This document shows, piece after piece, positions 1,664 through 52,870 of a stretch of DNA of 58,425 nucleotides. A program made the translations under genes and the position numbers. The notes beneath the pieces are model-generated. The model was not told the origin of the DNA. It saw only the letters and a program-made list of their open reading frames with translations, and did not search any database. Source of the DNA: a bacterium. GTDB taxonomy: Bacteria; CLD3; SB21. The first letter of the stretch is position 1, and each line of letters begins with the position of its first letter. The DNA is taken from positions 1 through 58,425 of the forward strand of contig JAIBAF010000017.1 in NCBI GenBank assembly GCA_019695335.1. The letters are read 5' to 3'.

Positions 1664-1761
1664 GATGAGAAATTAGGCCGGTAAATATATATGCGTAGTC
1701 CTAAATATTCAAGATAAATAAGGCTTTTCCGGCCTTTCTGATGTAAAAATCCGGAAATAAT

Positions 1762-22869: not shown

Positions 22870-23226
22870 TTATTTTTCCTTTTTAATAGTAATGAGTTTA
22901 GTTGGCGGACAGCAGCTGTCAAAAACTTTAAATAATTTGTCGATTAATCCCGAAAGTTGAGCAATCGTATCCGGGTTGATGCAATAACTTGATTTCGGCC
23001 CTTCGATCTCACCCCGAACAAGCCCGACGCGTTTGAGTTCTTTTAAATGCTGCGAAACAGTTGACTGTGCTAATGGCAAATCGGAAACCAATTCACCGCA
23101 AATGCATACATTGTCTTCGGCCAATTTTTTCAGAATCGCAATTCGTGCGGGATGTGACAAGGCTTTGGCTAATTCAGCTAACTTAATTTCGTCTTTTTCA
23201 AATTCATGGGCTTTACTGATCGCCAT
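22870..23226 (-). CDS. arsR: ArsR-family arsenic-responsive repressor
   Basis: A 118-residue winged-helix repressor. C41-x-C43 (NVCICGELV) lies in the DNA-binding region as in As(III)-sensing ArsR proteins, with further C82 and C105-C106 that could complete a three-thiol site. The recognition helix is LPLAQSTVSQHLKELKRVGLV. AAAGGA precedes the ATG. Four TATCGT-type half-sites (23239-23272) overlap its promoter, indicating autoregulation. It leads the arsR-arsM operon; no arsenite pump or ArsC reductase gene is in the window. Confidence 0.93.
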   Translation of the reverse strand: MAISKAHEFEKDEIKLAELAKALSHPARIAILKKLAEDNVCICGELVSDLPLAQSTVSQHLKELKRVGLVRGEIEGPKSSYCINPDTIAQLSGLIDKLFKVFDSCCPPTKLITIKKEK

Positions 23227-23238
23227 AAACGGTTCCTT

Positions 23239-23291
23239 TATCGTTTATCGTAAATATACGATAATATATCGTACAAGTTTCATTCTGTCAA
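23239..23291 (-). promoter_or_regulatory. arsR promoter with four operator half-sites
   Basis: On the minus strand TTGACA (23291-23286), 17 nt, TATATT (23268-23263). The half-site TATCGT/ACGATA occurs at 23239-23244, 23246-23251, 23258-23263 (inverted) and 23267-23272. They overlap the -10 box and the start region, so bound ArsR would block polymerase. Confidence 0.8.
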
Positions 23292-23360
23292 GCAATTTTG
23301 TTTTTTTTAATTCTGCAAATGCCTGAATACCGTTGAAAAACAAAGTCTTAAATCGTAAGG

Positions 23361-42805: not shown

Positions 42806-45800
42806 TTACCGCACCACCGCAAATTTCCCGCGCTTCTTTTGTTTTTCCGATTCGACTATGTAATAATAAATTCCACTTGGAACTTTATTACCGCTACGGT
42901 CTTTTAAATCCCATAATACTCCGCCATCCTGATCGGTTTCTTCAAGCGTGTTAATATAAACACCGTTGAGTGAATAAATTTTGATGGTCGCCGTCGGAGT
43001 CAGATTAGCGAACATCATTCCTTGCGGCGCTTCGTCCGGACGATAAGGATTGGGATAGGTAAAAACATGATCAAGAGTGTTCTGAGTTAAAACAATCGAA
43101 GAAGTATTGCCTTCCGTTTCATCCAAGATGCTTCCGGATTCAGCCATCAGATTCTTTACTTTAATAATGTATCGAATTCCAATCGCACCGATTGGATGAC
43201 TTCCGGTAATTTTAATATGAACAGTTTTAGGATTTACCGCATCGATGGCGGCCTCGGTTGTTTGAAAATCCGGTTCGACGCTGTAGTTGATAATATTTCC
43301 GGCTGATGCCGATGTAACCGCTTCGCTAAAATAAAGATCGATGGAATTATTTCCGAGGTATATGGTTTTTTCAAGAAAAAATTTCGGAGTGGCTAGCGGT
43401 ATCGTAATCTCTATAGAATGAAGCGTAGTATCAATCGGTGTACGGTCAGTGTCGGTAATATCGTTAACCGTAAGCCAGTAATTGCCCGGTGTGATTGACG
43501 GGAATGTCAATAAAACCTCTTCGCCGTTTTTTTTCGGGAGAGCTGTCATTGGAAATCCAACCGAATTCAATTCGTACGATCCGACGGCGGTTAATTTATT
43601 GACGTCCATTTTTTCAGAAAATTTTACGATAACATGTTCACGGCCGGAAGCTTGCGCGCTCACAATATAAGGTTTTCGATTTGGGCGTACGGTTTGAACG
43701 GGACTCAGATCGCTTTCGATTCCACTAACTATGGCTGTTATACCATAATAATATAGCTGATTGATTGTCACACTGGTGTCAAGGGTATCGGTATGCACGG
43801 CAGTGACATTGAATGCAAATTCCATACTGTCCAATGCCGTTCCACGATAAATTTTGTAAAGTTCTGCCGAAGGCGATGCATTCCATGAAAGTAACACCTG
43901 AAACGTATCCAACGGAGTAGCGGCAAAAGCGGACGGAGTTTGCGCAGGATTGATCAGTCCATTAAGGCTGTAGGCAACTGTTTGATGTCCGTTATTAAAA
44001 TAAATTTCTTTGATCGAATCGCCATTCATATCATCAATTACAACGGTGTTGCTGCGCGTTTGAGTCTGCCAAATCGGTTCATAAGTTTGAAGAGTTGAGT
44101 TATAGCTGAGTACATACAAATTGGGATACAGGCTCAGAAAAATTTCCGCTTTGCCATCACCATCGATATCCGCTGCATTGACGCCGCTTTGAAAGTCGGT
44201 TAGTGAACTGAAGCCGTAAAAATTTTGCTGCCATACAGGTTCGTAGATATTATCGCCGGTTGATTTGTAAATCACAAACGTCCAATATTGCTCGGCAGCT
44301 TGCGATTCACTAAGAAACGGCAATGTGTGCGTTCCAGCAATAAATTCATCTTTTCCGTCGCCATCAAAATCAGCGGCCGCTGTAAATCCGTTAACATCGT
44401 ACAGAGGCAGAGATTCTTGCCATGTTAAATCCAGGTTCTGGCCGTTTACTTCATAAATGTAAACGTCGCCGTCAAAATCTCCGAACAACAAATCTTTTTT
44501 CCCATCGCCGTCAAAATCGCCAACAGAACAAGACGGAATAGCAATAAAATTATCGCCATTGGTAGGATTATTCAAAGTTGCGGTTAATTTCCATTCATCG
44601 CCGCCGGAGTCCCGGTAGATTTTAAAATTTTTTCCGTTTTTGACGATCATTTTGGTGTCATTATTACTAAAAACATCATCAAATCTGACGCCCCAGAAAT
44701 CATTGTTATCGCGAAACGGGATAGTATTCGGCAGTGAATCCGGATGGTTCGATGTTATAATAAATGTCTCCGCGCCGGCGCCTGTTAAAATTTTTCCAAT
44801 ACCATTTGCGCGAAAGGCATCACGAGGAATTCCGTTGAAGTCGTAGCTTTTTTTGAGTCTGAATTTTCCAGGATAAATCGGATCAAATTCAAAAATTTTG
44901 ACTTGTTCGAAACCATGATTCGTATTCAGAGCATTAACAACTAATTCTTTTTTTCCGTTACTGTCAAGATCGGTTGTATGATCGAGTAAATACGATGACG
45001 GGAGTTGTATTGAAGTATCCTGAACAAAAGTAAATTGTTCAATAGGTTGGTCATCAAGCAGAAGTTCGTAATAAGCGCCGGCATTATTGGCTAAAGTATT
45101 CATCCCTGCGGCATTGCGTGCTTCAAGAAAAATATCGAAATGACCGGACAAATACTGATCCGGAATGAATACAATGTGTTTGGTTGAAAGCGCATTGATG
45201 GGAATCGGTTTGAACGGTTCAACGGTATTGTATGAGCGATACCAAACTGTCGAGGCGCACGGGTCGTCAGTCTGAAATTCGATTAAATAACCGTGACCAT
45301 TTCCAAAAATCATTTTTTTTATGACAATTTCGGAAATTATTGGAGCCGATCGATCAATAAAAAAACGCGAACGATCTTCGACAATGCTGCCGTCTTTATT
45401 TTCAATCACAAGACGTAGACTGTATGGTCCTTCGGCGAGCGGTTGCATATGGAGTGCGGCAAGACGTGCGTTGACTATTTGATGGTTTTCTGTGGTTTGC
45501 AACAGAATCCAATTCGATGGGTTTGAGCCGACGCCGTAATAAACGGAATATCGTTTTAAAAAAGCGCCGGAAGCGGTTCCGACAATTGCAAGCGTATCGG
45601 CAGCAACGCCTTGATCGGTTGCCGGAAAATTGATGCGCGCAATCGAAGCGTAAGCAATCTGTAACGCGCGAAAAGCGTTGAGCCGTCCCGCGCCGTAATA
45701 TTGATCCCAGCCATTTTCACCGATATCATCCGCGGAAGTTTCAACGATGGATTTGATTTCTTCAGCGTTAAATTCCGGATGATGTGAAATAATCAATGCG

Positions 45801-46987
45801 GCAAGCGCAGACACCAACGGTGCACTGGCGGATGTTCCGGAAAAATAAGTATAACCGCCTCCGCGGGACGTAGAATAAACATTGACACCGGGCGCCGCGA
45901 TATTGATCGAGATACCATAATTGGAAAACGATGCGAAAAAGTCGTCCGGGCCTGTCGCGCTGACGGAAATCGTTTCATCGAAACCGGAAGGATAGTGATA
46001 AGCGGACGAAGCATCGTTCCCGGCGGATGCGACCATCACGACGTCGTGTTCGTAGGCGTATCGAATCGCATCGCGCATCAATGGGGAAAATTCTTTGTCG
46101 CCAAAACTCATATTGATGACGCGAGCACCGTTATCGACGGCATAAATAATTGCCTGCGCGACGTCGTCTTCCTGCAGAAAACCGGAAGCCGATCCCGCGC
46201 GCAGAGGCATTATGGTACATCCGTAGGCTAATCCGATGACGCCCGTATGATTATTGCCTTCCGCACCTATAATACCGGCGACGGCGGTTCCATGACCGTT
46301 ATCGTCAAGCGGATCGTTGTCGGGCTCCAAAAAATCGCCGTTGTCGGCAAATCCGGGAGCGTCCACAAAATCCCACCCCCGCCAATCATCGACATATCCA
46401 TTGCCATCATCATCGATTCCGTTCGTACGGCGGTCATGACCGTTAGGATCCATTCCCGTTTCACCGGAATTGTGCCAAATCTGATTGGATAAATCCGGAT
46501 GCTGGTAATCAATCCCAGAATCAATGATGCCAATCAAAACATCGCGGGATCCTTTTTGTAAATTCCAGGCATCCATTGCCTGCACCAACTTAATCCAATA
46601 CAAGCTATCGACGTGCGTATCATTCGGTTTAACGGCATCGGAATTAAATGAATGGTTGATTGCAACATAGTCTACGTTGGGATCGGTTTGATAACGACGT
46701 AAAGCATCATTCAATGCATCCGAATCGTCGAAATCAACGACGTATACGTTTTCAAAACGATCCTGAACAGCCGATTTTTTTAATGCGGATTGCCGCGAAG
46801 TTCCGGTAAATTTTTTCACTTTGAAAGACGTTTTGGATAAGGCTTGACTGGAATTGAACGTTGGGCGGAAGGATTCAGGAATTGCATCCGATTTGAATTT
46901 GACAATGATAGATGTGGATGGTCTCTCCTGCGAAAATCCAGTAGGGCAAATAACTGCGATTAGAAATAAGATTAAAATAAATTGCAT
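42806..46987 (-). CDS. Secreted subtilisin-family protease with FG-GAP repeats and C-terminal sorting domain
   Basis: A 1393-residue exported protein. Signal peptide (about 1-19), propeptide (about 25-120), S8 catalytic domain (about 135-440) with D156 (IIDSGID), H232 (GHGTAVAGIIG), oxyanion N324 (SAGNDAS) and S386 (SGTSASAPLVSAL). An Ig-like region precedes FG-GAP/VCBS-type repeats with calcium-binding-like motifs (DFDGDGKKDLLFGDFDGD, DFDGDGKDEF, DIDGDGKAEIF, about 780-960). A fibronectin-III-like domain follows (about 1000-1080), and the end is a FlgD-like/T9SS-type module (YPNPYRPDE, GIYYYIVES). It probably acts on the cell surface. The promoter predicts a leaderless mRNA. Confidence 0.92.
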   Translation of the reverse strand: MQFILILFLIAVICPTGFSQERPSTSIIVKFKSDAIPESFRPTFNSSQALSKTSFKVKKFTGTSRQSALKKSAVQDRFENVYVVDFDDSDALNDALRRYQTDPNVDYVAINHSFNSDAVKPNDTHVDSLYWIKLVQAMDAWNLQKGSRDVLIGIIDSGIDYQHPDLSNQIWHNSGETGMDPNGHDRRTNGIDDDGNGYVDDWRGWDFVDAPGFADNGDFLEPDNDPLDDNGHGTAVAGIIGAEGNNHTGVIGLAYGCTIMPLRAGSASGFLQEDDVAQAIIYAVDNGARVINMSFGDKEFSPLMRDAIRYAYEHDVVMVASAGNDASSAYHYPSGFDETISVSATGPDDFFASFSNYGISINIAAPGVNVYSTSRGGGYTYFSGTSASAPLVSALAALIISHHPEFNAEEIKSIVETSADDIGENGWDQYYGAGRLNAFRALQIAYASIARINFPATDQGVAADTLAIVGTASGAFLKRYSVYYGVGSNPSNWILLQTTENHQIVNARLAALHMQPLAEGPYSLRLVIENKDGSIVEDRSRFFIDRSAPIISEIVIKKMIFGNGHGYLIEFQTDDPCASTVWYRSYNTVEPFKPIPINALSTKHIVFIPDQYLSGHFDIFLEARNAAGMNTLANNAGAYYELLLDDQPIEQFTFVQDTSIQLPSSYLLDHTTDLDSNGKKELVVNALNTNHGFEQVKIFEFDPIYPGKFRLKKSYDFNGIPRDAFRANGIGKILTGAGAETFIITSNHPDSLPNTIPFRDNNDFWGVRFDDVFSNNDTKMIVKNGKNFKIYRDSGGDEWKLTATLNNPTNGDNFIAIPSCSVGDFDGDGKKDLLFGDFDGDVYIYEVNGQNLDLTWQESLPLYDVNGFTAAADFDGDGKDEFIAGTHTLPFLSESQAAEQYWTFVIYKSTGDNIYEPVWQQNFYGFSSLTDFQSGVNAADIDGDGKAEIFLSLYPNLYVLSYNSTLQTYEPIWQTQTRSNTVVIDDMNGDSIKEIYFNNGHQTVAYSLNGLINPAQTPSAFAATPLDTFQVLLSWNASPSAELYKIYRGTALDSMEFAFNVTAVHTDTLDTSVTINQLYYYGITAIVSGIESDLSPVQTVRPNRKPYIVSAQASGREHVIVKFSEKMDVNKLTAVGSYELNSVGFPMTALPKKNGEEVLLTFPSITPGNYWLTVNDITDTDRTPIDTTLHSIEITIPLATPKFFLEKTIYLGNNSIDLYFSEAVTSASAGNIINYSVEPDFQTTEAAIDAVNPKTVHIKITGSHPIGAIGIRYIIKVKNLMAESGSILDETEGNTSSIVLTQNTLDHVFTYPNPYRPDEAPQGMMFANLTPTATIKIYSLNGVYINTLEETDQDGGVLWDLKDRSGNKVPSGIYYYIVESEKQKKRGKFAVVR

Positions 46988-47025: not shown

Positions 47026-47044
47026 AGGAAATCCCCGTTTTTAC

Positions 47045-47073
47045 TTGAAAAATGAGGCTTGAACCGGTATATT
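47045..47073 (+). promoter_or_regulatory. TerC-PPIase operon promoter
   Basis: TTGAAA (47045-47050), 17-nt spacer, TATATT (47068-47073). An in-frame TTG at 47072 falls inside the -10 box, which fixes the TerC start at ATG 47120. Confidence 0.7.
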
Positions 47074-47119
47074 GGTGCCCGTTTTTCAGTCGCTGTCATT
47101 GAATATTCAACGAGGTTTC

Positions 47120-47812
47120 ATGCATTTTGAATCCAGCGATCTGGTTACGATTGCGTTATTAGTTCTTTTGGAAGGTTTATTAAGCGCCGACAACGCCATC
47201 GTTTTGGCCGTATTAGTCATGCCGTTGCCGCCGGATCAACAAAAAAAAGCGTTGAAATACGGTATTATCGGTGCGTTTGTTTTTCGCGTGATTGCCGTAC
47301 TGCTGGCCGTTTACCTCCTGCACTTTCCCATTGTAAAAATTATCGGCGGAGCCTATTTGGTTTATCTCGCTGCCGATCATTTTCTTCGGAAACATCCCGA
47401 TCAACAGGAACGGCGACCTACCGCTAAGAAGTTTTTCGGACTTTCGGCATTCTGGAGCACGGTCATTGCTGTCGAATTAACCGATATTGTTTTCTCGGTC
47501 GATTCCATTCTTGCGGCTGTCGCGCTTTCAAATAAACAATGGGTGGTTATTACGGGAGGAATTATCGGAATTATTACCATGCGAATGGTTGCCGGAGTTT
47601 TTTTACAAATTATTAAAAAATTCCCGAAATTGGTTGATGGAGCTTATGTCATTGTTTTTTTTATTGGCGCGAAACTTTCGGCGGAATATTTTGATTTCGT
47701 AATGCCCAAGTGGATTACGTTTGGCGTTATCGGCGCCATCATTCTGATCAGTATAATCATGTCGATTGCTGAAGGAAAATCAGAAACGGACATTTCAAAT
47801 AACAGGAGTTAA
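47120..47812 (+). CDS. TerC-family integral membrane protein
   Basis: A 230-residue protein from ATG 47120 (GAGG upstream) with seven predicted helices. Acidic membrane residues in LLEGLLSADNAIVLAVLV and VELTDIVFSVDSILAAVAL are the TerC hallmark, likely metal-binding. Members are linked to tellurite resistance and Mn2+ export, and recently to metal loading of exported proteins (recalled from Bacillus work). Its gene carries the ribosome site of the following PPIase within its last codons. Confidence 0.93.
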   Translation: MHFESSDLVTIALLVLLEGLLSADNAIVLAVLVMPLPPDQQKKALKYGIIGAFVFRVIAVLLAVYLLHFPIVKIIGGAYLVYLAADHFLRKHPDQQERRPTAKKFFGLSAFWSTVIAVELTDIVFSVDSILAAVALSNKQWVVITGGIIGIITMRMVAGVFLQIIKKFPKLVDGAYVIVFFIGAKLSAEYFDFVMPKWITFGVIGAIILISIIMSIAEGKSETDISNNRS

Positions 47813-47814
47813 AT

Positions 47815-49509
47815 ATGTCGGCTTTTGTGCACACTATGATCGGTATGCTCGCATGGATGTGGATTTCAAGTTGCAAGCAGGGCAATGATCAGGTGCTTGT
47901 TAAAATTGGCAATAAAGATTCGATTACAATTGCAGAATTGAATGAAGCACTGAAATTTGCCTACGGCGATGATGCCAATAAACTGTCGCGTCTAGATAAA
48001 AAAAATCTCATTACGAAATTGGCTGACAACCAATTGCTTTTTATTGGCGCTTTCGACAACAACCTGATCCAGGATTCTGTATTTCAATTCGAATTGAACC
48101 GGACTAAAGAAAACATTATACGCCAGGCCGCGCTTGAAAAATATGTTTACAGTTTTTTTATCAATGATCAGTCCATTTCAACTTTAGAACACAACTATGG
48201 TACATCGATCGATGTCCAACATCTTGTTATCGGTTATGCGACTAGCAAAGATTCAAAAATCCAACGATCTAGAACATCGGCTAAATTGCTGGCGGATTCA
48301 ATTTTTTCCATTGCTTCGCTCCAAAAATTCAATGCATTGATCGAAACGTTCTCGGATAACAAAGATAACAAAACCGGTAAAGGCAATATTCGCGCTCAGC
48401 GTATATCTCCCGGCAAGGTACCGTTTATATATGAACAGACTGTTTTTAATAGCGAACCTAATACTATCACGAAACCTATTGAAGTACCCGGAGCTTTTGT
48501 TATTGCAAAAGTAGTCAACGTTTTTAAATCCGGTCAGAAAAACGAACAACTCTCCCGCAAAAAAATAGCTTTCGAATTAAGAGAAAAACTTGAAGTTTCT
48601 GAAAATTATTTACTGATCAATCGTTACACTATGTTCACCGACTCTCTTCAATTGAACAGCAATGTAAAATTCAATGATGTTCAGATTGACAGTTTTATAA
48701 ATCTCATTGGCGAAAACGACAACACCTCATCTTTACGCGGCAAAATTACTGCTGATAAGATCCTTGTCACTTTCGGAAACGATCGGGATATTACTGCGTT
48801 GCAATTATTGAATTCGTATAACGCCGATGCTCAATGGAAAAATAGTAGCCGTAATCTTATTGTCGACCGTTTGAAACAAATGGTCAAGGATGATCTTCTA
48901 AAGGCGGCCATCAGTAACGAAGGGTTTTTGGAATCGGATGAGTTTTATTTTAAAACACGCGAATGGTCAAGGCAATTTGCGATGGAGATTTTGAAGGGTA
49001 GCATATTGGCTTATACGAATAAAGTACCGGTGGAGGAATTGCGCCGTTATTTTGAAGATAACCGGGAGCAGTTTTCGTCGCCGGGCGACATGAAAGTATT
49101 GGAAGTATATTCAAGCCAATTTAATGCTCTCGATTCCGTTGCCCGATTGGTTGAAGACAAAGTCGATCTGGTCAAAGCGGCCGAACAGATCAACGGCAAA
49201 AAGAAAGACAGGATCATTATGATCAAAGATCCTTCTAACTATCCGGATAATCAGAATGATGAACTTGTGAAGAAAGCCTTGAGCTTGAAGCTGGGTGAAG
49301 TCAGTAAGATTTTTCAGCGAAAAGACGGTGGTTATTCTATGATCAGGCTGATGGAAAAAAATGAAAAAAAATCACAACCGTTTGATTTGATCAAAAATCA
49401 AGTCGAGCGTTCGTACCGTGATAATCAGCAAAAAAAATTAACAGAAAAATTTTTGCATCAGCTTAAATTAAAATATCCTGTAGTGGTTTACGAAAGTAAA
49501 TTAAAATGA
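47815..49509 (+). CDS. Lipoprotein with two parvulin-like PPIase/SurA-type domains
   Basis: A 564-residue exported protein. Lipobox ISSC with Cys20. SurA-like N-terminal helical part (about 25-125), a first parvulin-like domain (about 130-230: DVQHLVIGYATSKDS, GKGNIRAQRISPGKVPFIYEQTVFN), and a second (about 410-530: DMKVLEVYSSQFNALDSVARLVE, LKLGEVSKIFQRKDGGYSMIRLMEK). It likely assists folding of envelope proteins. AGGAG lies 4 nt before the ATG. Overlaps the next gene by 4 bp. Confidence 0.82.
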   Translation: MSAFVHTMIGMLAWMWISSCKQGNDQVLVKIGNKDSITIAELNEALKFAYGDDANKLSRLDKKNLITKLADNQLLFIGAFDNNLIQDSVFQFELNRTKENIIRQAALEKYVYSFFINDQSISTLEHNYGTSIDVQHLVIGYATSKDSKIQRSRTSAKLLADSIFSIASLQKFNALIETFSDNKDNKTGKGNIRAQRISPGKVPFIYEQTVFNSEPNTITKPIEVPGAFVIAKVVNVFKSGQKNEQLSRKKIAFELREKLEVSENYLLINRYTMFTDSLQLNSNVKFNDVQIDSFINLIGENDNTSSLRGKITADKILVTFGNDRDITALQLLNSYNADAQWKNSSRNLIVDRLKQMVKDDLLKAAISNEGFLESDEFYFKTREWSRQFAMEILKGSILAYTNKVPVEELRRYFEDNREQFSSPGDMKVLEVYSSQFNALDSVARLVEDKVDLVKAAEQINGKKKDRIIMIKDPSNYPDNQNDELVKKALSLKLGEVSKIFQRKDGGYSMIRLMEKNEKKSQPFDLIKNQVERSYRDNQQKKLTEKFLHQLKLKYPVVVYESKLK

Positions 49510-50324
49510 AACGACGGGTGGTATGGTGTTTGGCTATTGTTGTCATTGCTTGCAGTGAAGCCAAGCCGGATTACATTGTAAAAGTGGGTGAGACGCTTCT
49601 GACGGAAACGATGATCGACAGCGCGCTACGTAATGATGTGCGCGGCCAAACCAACGCACGTGATTTATATATCCAACAATGGATTCAAACGGAGACGCTT
49701 TACCAAAAAGCAAAGATGGTTGGGATGGATAAAGACCCGCGGTATCTTCAGCAAATGGCGTTGATTCAAAAAGAATTATTGGTGCAAGCCTTTGTTGAAG
49801 GTGAATTGGATAAATCGATCCAGATCACTAAACAGGAAATAGAACAATTTTATCAGGAGCATAGCAAAGAATTTGAAATTCCTGAAGATCAGGTGAAAAC
49901 GGAATATTTTTTTACGCGTGAAAAGCTGAAAGCTAAAAACCTGGAGCAACAGCTCATTCGTATGGCACGTATTCGGGTGAAGGATTTTGTCGATCTGGTG
50001 ACGCAGGCGGCTTCGGACAGCGATATTATCGGCGCGACCGAATTTCTTCCGCGCGATAAATTTGAAGAAAAAATAGCCAAATATCTGTTTGCTAAAAACG
50101 CTACGGATGAAATTATCGGACCGATCCAAAACAAAAACGGTTATTATACCCTCTGGCATGTGGAAGAAATTCGTCCGAAAGGAGCGCCAAAACCTTTAGC
50201 GCAAGTTGAAGGTGAGATCGAAGCGCGGCTCAAAGCCATCAAACGAAAACGAAAAACAGAAGAATTGGTCAAGAAGATCAAAAACGAAATCCCCATCGAA
50301 TATAATACGCCTCTTACTCCCTAA
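49506..50324 (+). CDS. Parvulin-like PPIase lipoprotein
   Basis: A 272-residue lipoprotein (VIAC, Cys16). Helical N-terminus with IQTETLYQKAKMVGMDKDPRYLQQMALIQKELL as in PpiC/PrsA chaperones, then a parvulin-like domain (about 125-225) whose tail is FAKNATDEIIGPIQNKNGYYTLWHVEEIRPKG. Its start codon overlaps the previous stop (ATGA). A second folding factor beside the larger one; they may form a pair. The 3' end is 3 bp from the convergent DUF5916 gene. Confidence 0.82.
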   Translation: MKRRVVWCLAIVVIACSEAKPDYIVKVGETLLTETMIDSALRNDVRGQTNARDLYIQQWIQTETLYQKAKMVGMDKDPRYLQQMALIQKELLVQAFVEGELDKSIQITKQEIEQFYQEHSKEFEIPEDQVKTEYFFTREKLKAKNLEQQLIRMARIRVKDFVDLVTQAASDSDIIGATEFLPRDKFEEKIAKYLFAKNATDEIIGPIQNKNGYYTLWHVEEIRPKGAPKPLAQVEGEIEARLKAIKRKRKTEELVKKIKNEIPIEYNTPLTP

Positions 50325-50327
50325 TCT

Positions 50328-52814
50328 TTAAATTCTCATAAAATACTGAAACTTCACAAACACGCTTTGTTGTGTTGGGGTCAAACCGTTGTAGTTAGGA
50401 TAAGGATCGCTCTTACCGCCGAAATGAGCTCCGATAAAAAATACCGTGAACGGATTGATTTTGTAGCTGACCAACGGATCAACGCTGTATGATTTTGATT
50501 TCGAATGATCCAGCTTGTATTTTCCGGGTCCTTCGACAATAAAATTCCCATCGTCATCAGTCGCAGATTCATTGGATTCTCTGACCGCATACTCGCCGAT
50601 AATGCGTAAAAACAAACGGCGGGTGAATTGATAGGCCAGAGTATTTCTGAAAATTTTCTGAGCCGTGATCAGACTGCCACCGTAATGCGTCCAGAGATTG
50701 AATTGCCGGTAATCAATTTGATTGGATAACTGGCTGGTCGGCTTAATGGTAATCCATGTCTGGAGATTAAATCCTTTGGCTTTAGCCAAAGGGTTACGCG
50801 GATCGTCAATACCCTGGTCGTCGATATTACCTGAACGATTAACATAATTACCATTTTCAGTCCAGACACCACCGTAAAGCTTTTTGTAAATTTTGGTACC
50901 AAATTCAAAAGAGAATCGGTGAATATGATTGAATTGACGATCTCTGAAGTTTTCATTGTTGAGTGCAGCAATGCTCATCCAGATGTACGTTTGCTTTTTA
51001 AACTGGATAAAAAGCTGCGGATTGATCCACCAGTCTTTTAACTTTCCGTCGTAGTTATATTTCCGGTTGAATTGCAAGCGGGGCTCAACCCGATCGAGCA
51101 CGGTTGATTGAGGATAATAGAAAGTATAACGCTGATACGAGCCGATTTCGCGGAGGTTGTTCGAACTGATAAAACCGTTTTCCGAACGAAATCCCGGTGA
51201 ACGGTCATTGTACCATGCAAAAAACCCCCAATGTTTTGCCGTTCTGTCCAAAGTCAGACGAAATAAATGTCCGTCAAAATTTTCACCGTCGAAGTCGCCG
51301 GTATACGTTGTGTGGCCTTCTTTAAAGGATTCAAAATCTTTATCGTCTTTGGATAAAAGCGAGTCACTCGATTCATCAGTGTGGCTCATACTTGCTAGAG
51401 CCGATAACGTGTATTTGGTACTCAATCGCACTTTAGCATCGAGAGTACCGACGGAATTCGATGCATTCGAAAGCCGGCGATCGGTACCGGTAAATCCGAT
51501 ATACGTTCCAGTGCCGAGCTCGTATTTCGTACGAAGAATATTTGAAACAGAATTTTTGTTCGTAAATAAACCCGGCCCGCTTTCCTCGAATGGGATCACA
51601 TACTGCGTGCTCTCGTCGTAACCCGAAATATAGCCGAAACTCATTTTTCCCGCTTTTCCGGAAATTTTACCCACTACCAAAGGATCGCTGATCGTGCGCG
51701 TGTAAAGTAAATTTATATCTTGATCCACATAAAAAATATCCCGGCCTTCGAGAAAGAAAGGTCGTTTTTCATTGTAAAACAGTGCAAAAGGATTATTCAC
51801 ACTGATCTGTCCGGCATCCGATTCAATTTGACTGAAATCGGGATTATAGGCCAGATCCAAAGTGACATTCGACGTCAGTCCGTATTTGAGATTAAATCCT
51901 ACATCACCGTCATAGTTTCGTTTATCCCATTTTCCATTGCCATCGTCTTTTTCGATCAATGATTTTTCAGATGTACCGACTGTGTACGGCAGAAATTCAA
52001 TATTACGGGAAGACGTTTCGGGGATTTTCATTTTAATGTGTCCGGCTTGGGCGTATTGATTGCTGATATCGCGCGACGTTGCCATCCAGGAATACACATA
52101 ACGGCTTTCGCGAGGATAGATTCTATAAAAATGAATCAGCCAGTCTTGTTCCGGTTTATTGGGAAATCGCAGGCTTTTGAATGGGATTTTAATTTCGGCC
52201 GTCCAACGGTCATCGTAAATTTTGGCGGCAGATTCCCACACCGCATCGAAGCTGTCATCCTCGTTACCCGTCACGTCAACGCTGAGATCGGCCTGAACAC
52301 CTAAAGGATTGACGAAAAACTCAAACCCGTTGAGTTGAGCGCCGAAAGGGTCGATATTGAGGCCGACAAAATCGTCTTCATACAACGCGTCACGATCGCT
52401 CAAAACCGCACGCAGTTTTCTCATGTCCGGATCATGACAAATAAACGCAATGTACAAATATTTATCGTCATGCGTAATATAACCCTCCGTTACGGCCTTC
52501 GGTTTTTGCCGCTCATTGGGATAATTCTCGGCAAAATTGCTGAAGTGCTCCAATTGTAACCATGACTCTTCGATTTCGCCATCAATGACCGGTGATATGG
52601 CCGCTGGCTGAACATTAATGGTCAAGATAGGATTCGGAGCGAAAGTTTTCGATTCATCGGAAATCTTGGCGGATGCTAATGTTCCTGCCTGAATATTGGC
52701 AAAAAGCTGAAACGGCATGACGAGCAGCAGCAAGATCAACAGACTGATCAAAATTGATATTAAAAATCTTTCGCCATAGGGCAAACGACCCAGAAACTCA
52801 TACGCATGTTTCAT
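50328..52814 (-). CDS. DUF5916 protein: CBM9-like domain and outer-membrane beta-barrel
   Basis: An 828-residue protein from ATG 52814 (GGAGAG upstream). A hydrophobic helix at about 15-45 (ISILISLLILLLLVMPFQLF) acts as an export signal. The CBM9/DOMON-like domain (about 75-265: PVIDGEIEESWLQLEHFSNF, DDKYLYIAFICHDPDM) is followed by the DUF5916 barrel region with many alternating strands, e.g. NLKYGLTSNVTLDLAYNPDFSQIESD and KRPFFLEGRDIF. It ends in FVKFQYFMRI, an aromatic-terminal outer-membrane strand. Function unknown; may bind carbohydrate at the surface. A promoter is at 52871-52899. Confidence 0.88.
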   Translation of the reverse strand: MKHAYEFLGRLPYGERFLISILISLLILLLLVMPFQLFANIQAGTLASAKISDESKTFAPNPILTINVQPAAISPVIDGEIEESWLQLEHFSNFAENYPNERQKPKAVTEGYITHDDKYLYIAFICHDPDMRKLRAVLSDRDALYEDDFVGLNIDPFGAQLNGFEFFVNPLGVQADLSVDVTGNEDDSFDAVWESAAKIYDDRWTAEIKIPFKSLRFPNKPEQDWLIHFYRIYPRESRYVYSWMATSRDISNQYAQAGHIKMKIPETSSRNIEFLPYTVGTSEKSLIEKDDGNGKWDKRNYDGDVGFNLKYGLTSNVTLDLAYNPDFSQIESDAGQISVNNPFALFYNEKRPFFLEGRDIFYVDQDINLLYTRTISDPLVVGKISGKAGKMSFGYISGYDESTQYVIPFEESGPGLFTNKNSVSNILRTKYELGTGTYIGFTGTDRRLSNASNSVGTLDAKVRLSTKYTLSALASMSHTDESSDSLLSKDDKDFESFKEGHTTYTGDFDGENFDGHLFRLTLDRTAKHWGFFAWYNDRSPGFRSENGFISSNNLREIGSYQRYTFYYPQSTVLDRVEPRLQFNRKYNYDGKLKDWWINPQLFIQFKKQTYIWMSIAALNNENFRDRQFNHIHRFSFEFGTKIYKKLYGGVWTENGNYVNRSGNIDDQGIDDPRNPLAKAKGFNLQTWITIKPTSQLSNQIDYRQFNLWTHYGGSLITAQKIFRNTLAYQFTRRLFLRIIGEYAVRESNESATDDDGNFIVEGPGKYKLDHSKSKSYSVDPLVSYKINPFTVFFIGAHFGGKSDPYPNYNGLTPTQQSVFVKFQYFMRI

Positions 52815-52870
52815 TGACAATTCTCTCCATGGTGACAATCGACGATTTCAAAAACGATAAACTATGATTG

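Follow-up and report, generated by a model that had tools for sequence, protein, structure and literature searches.

How the correct metal enters exported metalloproteins is an open question, and in Bacillus the contact between MeeY, a TerC-family protein, and PrsA rests on co-immunoprecipitation. PrsA is a parvulin-type lipoprotein. We analyzed a 58,425-nucleotide stretch of bacterial DNA (hereafter, the window) in which a TerC gene is followed by genes for two parvulin-like lipoproteins, and we asked whether these genes form a unit that couples metal supply to the folding of exported proteins. The initial annotation of this DNA had proposed a functional link of this kind and had extended it to an FG-GAP protease next door. 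An operon from a distant lineage in which both of these protein types are brought together, along with a related genome (G002) that carries no TerC at the identical site, provides a natural test pair.

Reading the open reading frames in the window places TerC (47120..47812), gene 2 (47815..49509), and gene 3 (49506..50324) in that order on the plus strand. The last base of the TerC stop codon is 47812 and the gene 2 ATG begins at 47815, leaving a gap of 2 bp; gene 2 terminates at 49509, beyond the gene 3 ATG at 49506, an overlap of 4 bp. These coordinates confirm the three frames, their order, and their spacing as originally described. The mechanically called TerC frame opens at a TTG at 47072; we place the start at the ATG at 47120 (MHFESSDL), giving 230 residues, because the relatives’ proteins begin at the same residues. 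The unit is closed on both sides, since its left neighbor, an S8/FG-GAP protease gene (42806-46987), is divergent from TerC and its right neighbor, a DUF5916 gene (50328-52838), is convergent with gene 3. The annotated span had started at 47045. The operon is real, but that position is the -35 element of the promoter and lies outside any gene. With these corrections, the observation of a three-gene TerC/lipoprotein operon is confirmed.

The promoter itself is sigma-70-like (TTGAAA-17-TATATT, 47045..47073 on the plus strand) and was identified by a consensus scan and by conservation in relatives. Our family sample comprised seven genomes (G000-G006) and our phylum sample nine. In all six TerC-positive family genomes, TTGA-(hexamer spacer 17-18)-TATATT precedes TerC, with hexamers that are identical or nearly so within divergent flanking DNA, and in the seventh, G002, TTGAAA-17-TATATT stands directly before gene 2. 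The promoter is thus kept in 7/7 genomes, which supports the single promoter that had been proposed. The related motif CTTGA-N19/20-TATATT was found in three copies by a scan of the window (1684-1713, 23263-23292, and 47044-47073), compared to 0.13 expected from shuffles, and one of the other two copies lies 36 bp ahead of a minus-strand frame at 22870-23226. This motif is likely the housekeeping promoter consensus of the lineage.

The first gene encodes a 230-aa integral membrane protein, and both family models and the N-termini of its relatives support this call. It matches Pfam PF03741 at 179 bits and the YkoY model TIGR03716 at 234.7 bits, against a curated cut-off of 138.5, and the YjbE and Alx models score below their own cut-offs. 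By these matches, its sequence places it in the YkoY/MeeY subfamily. Across nine aligned sequences, E18, S22, D24, N25, E119, D122, and D128 are invariant. The acidic residues among them (E18, D24, E119, D122, and D128) lie in membrane segments, and we take them to have a role in metal handling. In a quick tree of 104 TerC rows, the family’s TerC is sister to a set from Acidobacteriota (SH-aLRT 97); one row in that tree, L088_6315, is probably a spurious overlapping frame.

The best precedent comes from B. subtilis, in which YkoY is known as MeeY (PMC10550928). That study describes MeeY as serving Mn loading of exoenzymes and copurifying with the Sec machinery. In each of its three Table 1 experiments, both MeeF and MeeY co-immunoprecipitated with PrsA, and they also did so with SecDF (PMC10550928). 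A double mutant in MeeF and MeeY secreted less protein and less Mn (PMC10550928), and the PrsA-MeeY interaction is restated in a second paper (PMC11332333). Because MeeY copurifies with PrsA, a module that couples metalation and folding is plausible, though unproven. The protein studied here belongs to the same TerC family as MeeY and MeeF and scores above the YkoY cut-off. It differs in its genetic context, as it stands in an operon with parvulin-fold lipoproteins, an arrangement not described for MeeY in the open-licence PMC literature we found. It also differs in its regulation: B. subtilis meeY is under a Mn riboswitch, whereas TerC here has none anywhere in its genome. The yybP-ykoY Mn riboswitch (RF00080) was absent at the locus, in the loci of five relatives and in L068, and in the nine whole genomes of the phylum sample, so there is no sign of metal control. 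To our knowledge, this riboswitch is not a feature of every YkoY/MeeY subfamily member, and the subfamily assignment therefore stands without it.

These regulatory results bear on the idea that TerC acts chiefly as a pump for Mn efflux or detoxification, guarding Sec-exported proteins from mis-metalation, with the chaperones answering the same envelope stress. The TerC proteins of B. subtilis, YkoY among them, do show a minor activity in Mn efflux (PMC10550928), and placement in one operon would yield co-expression of pump and chaperones. However, with the riboswitch in 0/9 genomes and a promoter that looks housekeeping, we consider this explanation improbable.

The two downstream genes encode a 564-aa lipoprotein with two degenerate parvulin domains (gene 2) and a 272-aa lipoprotein with one (gene 3). 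Gene 2 matches PF00639, PF13616, and PF13145, with PF00639 and PF13145 above cut-off, and gene 3 matches PF13145 above cut-off at 44 bits. The lipobox cysteine of gene 2 (Cys20) is invariant in six genomes, and that of gene 3 (Cys16) is invariant in five, and the truncated G003 copy has it as well; the G002 copy was left out of this count because an upstream run of N hides its N-terminus. Both proteins are presumably anchored as lipoproteins in the manner of PrsA. The description of gene 2 as a two-domain parvulin-like lipoprotein holds, given its two domains and lipobox cysteine. The label of peptidyl-prolyl isomerase (PPIase), which the initial annotation had given to both proteins, is not supported. 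The parvulin PPIase active site contains two histidines, located in HI/VL and G[FY]H motifs, and none of the 19 operon parvulin domains tabulated retains both. Only domain 1 of gene 2 in G000 and G001 still has the first histidine (two rows of the active-site table are gapped at this position, where the alignment reads N). In gene 2 domain 2, the pair is replaced by E and S, and gene 3 has no histidine at either position. SurA from the same genome has HI/VL and G[FY]H in both of its parvulin domains. The PPIase label is doubtful because none of the three parvulin domains has the catalytic pair, and genes 2 and 3 are probably parvulin-fold lipoproteins rather than PPIases. Their best PDB sequence matches are the parvulin foldases HP_0175 (6bhf, 5ez1) and Cbf2 (3rfw), but the catalytic histidine pair is replaced here. 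AlphaFold2 models built from three-row alignments had mean pLDDT values of 40.7 (gene 2) and 53.2 (gene 3), which are too poor to use.

The closest counterparts of these two genes occur in a different setting. Gene-3-like proteins were present in 77/389 sampled genomes, six of them within the family, and we took 17 mostly high-scoring loci (L207-L223) from the 71 genomes outside it. A SurA-type gene lies immediately downstream of the gene 3 counterpart, B, in 16 of these 17 foreign loci, and a longer parvulin gene, A, lies upstream of B in nine (one with a 0.3-kb gap and one encoding only 456 aa). TerC was found in 0/17. This A-B-SurA cluster, comprising a ~570-aa lipoprotein A, a ~285-aa lipoprotein B, and then SurA, recurs in unrelated families. 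When compared with profiles built from other lineages’ genes only, gene 2 matched profile A end-to-end (157.5 bits, vs. 73.7 for B and 28.2 for SurA) and gene 3 matched profile B end-to-end (166.3 bits, vs. 62.0 for A and 18.7 for SurA). In the foreign A genes, every aligned copy lacks the histidine pair in domain 2, and most copies retain it in domain 1. As a caution, profile A is also matched by family paralogues that occur as singletons, and the ones in G006 and G001 outscore gene 2; in a tree, gene 2 groups with these family paralogues and not with any one foreign A.

Like the A-B-SurA clusters, the operon has A followed by B, adjacent and co-directional, but it differs in having TerC at its head and no SurA at its end. 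The host surA is on another contig (G000:C12), and the convergent DUF5916 gene stands after gene 3 instead. From these comparisons, the reading that fits the operon best is the A-B portion of such a cluster with SurA absent and TerC in front, leaving aside which of the A-like genes is its strict orthologue. The locus thereby draws notice both to this three-gene cluster and to parvulin lipoproteins that seem to have abandoned catalysis. As a separate observation, a sister family in the same class has a large parvulin lipoprotein directly before SurA and no gene B (L179 in G008, L180 in G007); neither of these two genomes has a YkoY-type TerC.

Within the family, the order TerC, gene 2, gene 3 is kept in six of seven genomes from three genera (G000, G001, G003, G004, G005, and G006), and in the five relatives the gap separating gene 2 from TerC measures 2-15 bp. 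Conservation at this level excludes chance, and the arrangement is not peculiar to this one genome, the outcome that had been named as fatal to a functional link. However, synteny in G004 and G006 extends over a seven-gene block running from TerC to HutI. The conserved order is therefore partly ordinary synteny and by itself weak evidence of function, and the tight spacing and conserved promoter carry more weight. Between genera, identity is about 75-79% for TerC, 34-52% for gene 3, and 23-27% for gene 2; within a genus, it is 93% for TerC and 70% for gene 2. Gene 2 (47815-49509; relatives in L055, L057, L058, L059, and L060) thus diverges far faster than its operon mates, and selection on client binding is a possible cause.

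The exception is G002, which has gene 2, gene 3, DUF5916, and NUDIX in the same order, with TerC missing between the promoter and gene 2. In this genome, the DNA between the promoter and gene 2 is unbroken and contains no masked bases. TerC matches elsewhere in G002, a genome that is 85% complete, were only more distant ones, and none exceeded the YkoY cut-off. Because G002 has the promoter and both lipoprotein genes with no TerC, the pair can evidently persist without it. In an RpoB tree, G002 falls with genus g4 at 82/90, a grouping that is not starred and that is no longer resolved when the alignment is trimmed to the part covered by G002. This placement favors loss of TerC in G002 over ancestral absence but does not prove it.

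The same genome is an argument that the three genes share a promoter and nothing more. Recombination could have inserted TerC behind a housekeeping promoter and ahead of a parvulin pair that is older in the locus, and synteny could then have kept the accidental co-transcription, with TerC handling the balance of Mn or another divalent metal alone and the lipoproteins serving outer-membrane protein folding. Such a history would fit the identical promoter directly ahead of the pair in G002, the syntenic block in G004 and G006, the usual company of the parvulin pair with SurA, and the restriction of the arrangement to one family. It fits less well with a trio that stays intact across three genera despite gene 2 identities of about 25% and a swap of the 5' neighbor from protease to FAD oxidase, or with the MeeY-PrsA association reported in B. 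subtilis (PMC10550928). We regard it as a serious contender whose chances are somewhat short of even.

The restriction to one family emerged from a broader survey of TerC loci. Outside the family, we examined 96 YkoY-type TerC loci, consisting of 78 of the 80 best genome-scan loci and 18 loci from 16 genomes, and found a co-directional parvulin neighbor in 0/96; 1 kb or more of sequence follows 95 of the 98 TerC frames in these loci. In two acidobacterial loci (L095 and L124), a parvulin gene whose histidines are intact lies on the opposite strand, 1.2-1.5 kb away from the YkoY-type TerC. No parvulin was detected in 29 further loci, almost all of them belonging to TerC matches of other kinds and mostly with 1.5-kb flanks. 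A wider TerC-parvulin association was accordingly rejected, and within our sample the arrangement occurs in no other family. An operon of TerC and parvulins was likewise not found in the open-licence PMC literature, including in searches on the parvulin cluster.

Returning to coupling, the proposal is that a MeeY-type TerC and the A and B lipoproteins would jointly serve the metal supply and folding of exported proteins. TerC at the Sec translocon would export Mn2+ or some other divalent ion to the inner membrane’s outer face. The two lipoproteins would receive the emerging chains as holdases without catalytic activity, comparable to PrsA or to the chaperone portion of SurA. Metal entry and folding would thereby occur together, and co-transcription from an operon of housekeeping type would hold metal supply and chaperones in step. 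TerC would be optional, having been gained by or lost from a promoter-A-B unit able to exist alone. The 2-bp spacing and 4-bp overlap, the promoter in 7/7 genomes, the TIGR03716 score above cut-off, the B. subtilis co-immunoprecipitations with PrsA and SecDF, the A and B profile matches, and the foreign A-B(-SurA) neighborhoods speak for this explanation, while G002, the 0/96 outside loci, the 0/17 A-B-SurA loci, the partial synteny, and the missing riboswitch speak against it. Weighing these together, we put the explanation as a whole, its coupling of metal supply and folding being inferred, at a little under an even chance, and coincidence of a shared promoter only slightly lower. A stronger version, in which this diderm phylum has a dedicated metalation-and-folding module whose MeeY-type TerC is physically paired with two non-catalytic parvulin lipoproteins recruited from the SurA cluster, so that the same nascent chains receive both metal and chaperone, seems rather unlikely. 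The functional link first suggested is therefore upheld in part: a single transcription unit, its conservation across the family, and a MeeY subfamily with PrsA contact favor it, but a genome without TerC and the empty survey outside the family do not. The original interpretation overall is partly supported.

The part of that interpretation concerning the protease is weak. The S8/FG-GAP protease is divergent from TerC in only three of seven genomes (G000, G001, and G003); in the other four (G002, by similarity, G004, G005, and G006), the divergent neighbor is a FAD-linked oxidase. Moreover, the FG-GAP motifs are present in the protease sequence, and we take these loops to be of the Ca2+ type. 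Loading of metal by TerC into this protease, to which the lipoproteins would be dedicated as PPIases, would match the adjacency in those three genomes, and B. subtilis lacking both MeeF and MeeY is reported to secrete more than twofold less AprE, also an S8 protease (PMC10550928). Yet the oxidase in 4/7 genomes (including g4 and G002), the Ca2+-type loops, and the degenerate parvulin active sites leave this the slimmest of the possibilities considered here.

The oxidase that takes the protease’s place in g4 and G002 (L058 9556-10941; L056 5862-6572) matches PF02913 and PF01565, and its best NCBIfam match is GlcD, below that model’s cut-off. GlcD is also included in the B. subtilis MeeF co-immunoprecipitation list (PMC10550928), which is probably a coincidence. 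The protease itself (42806-46987) ends in a weak FlgD-Ig/Por_Secre_tail-like domain, which suggests type IX-like secretion or surface anchoring.
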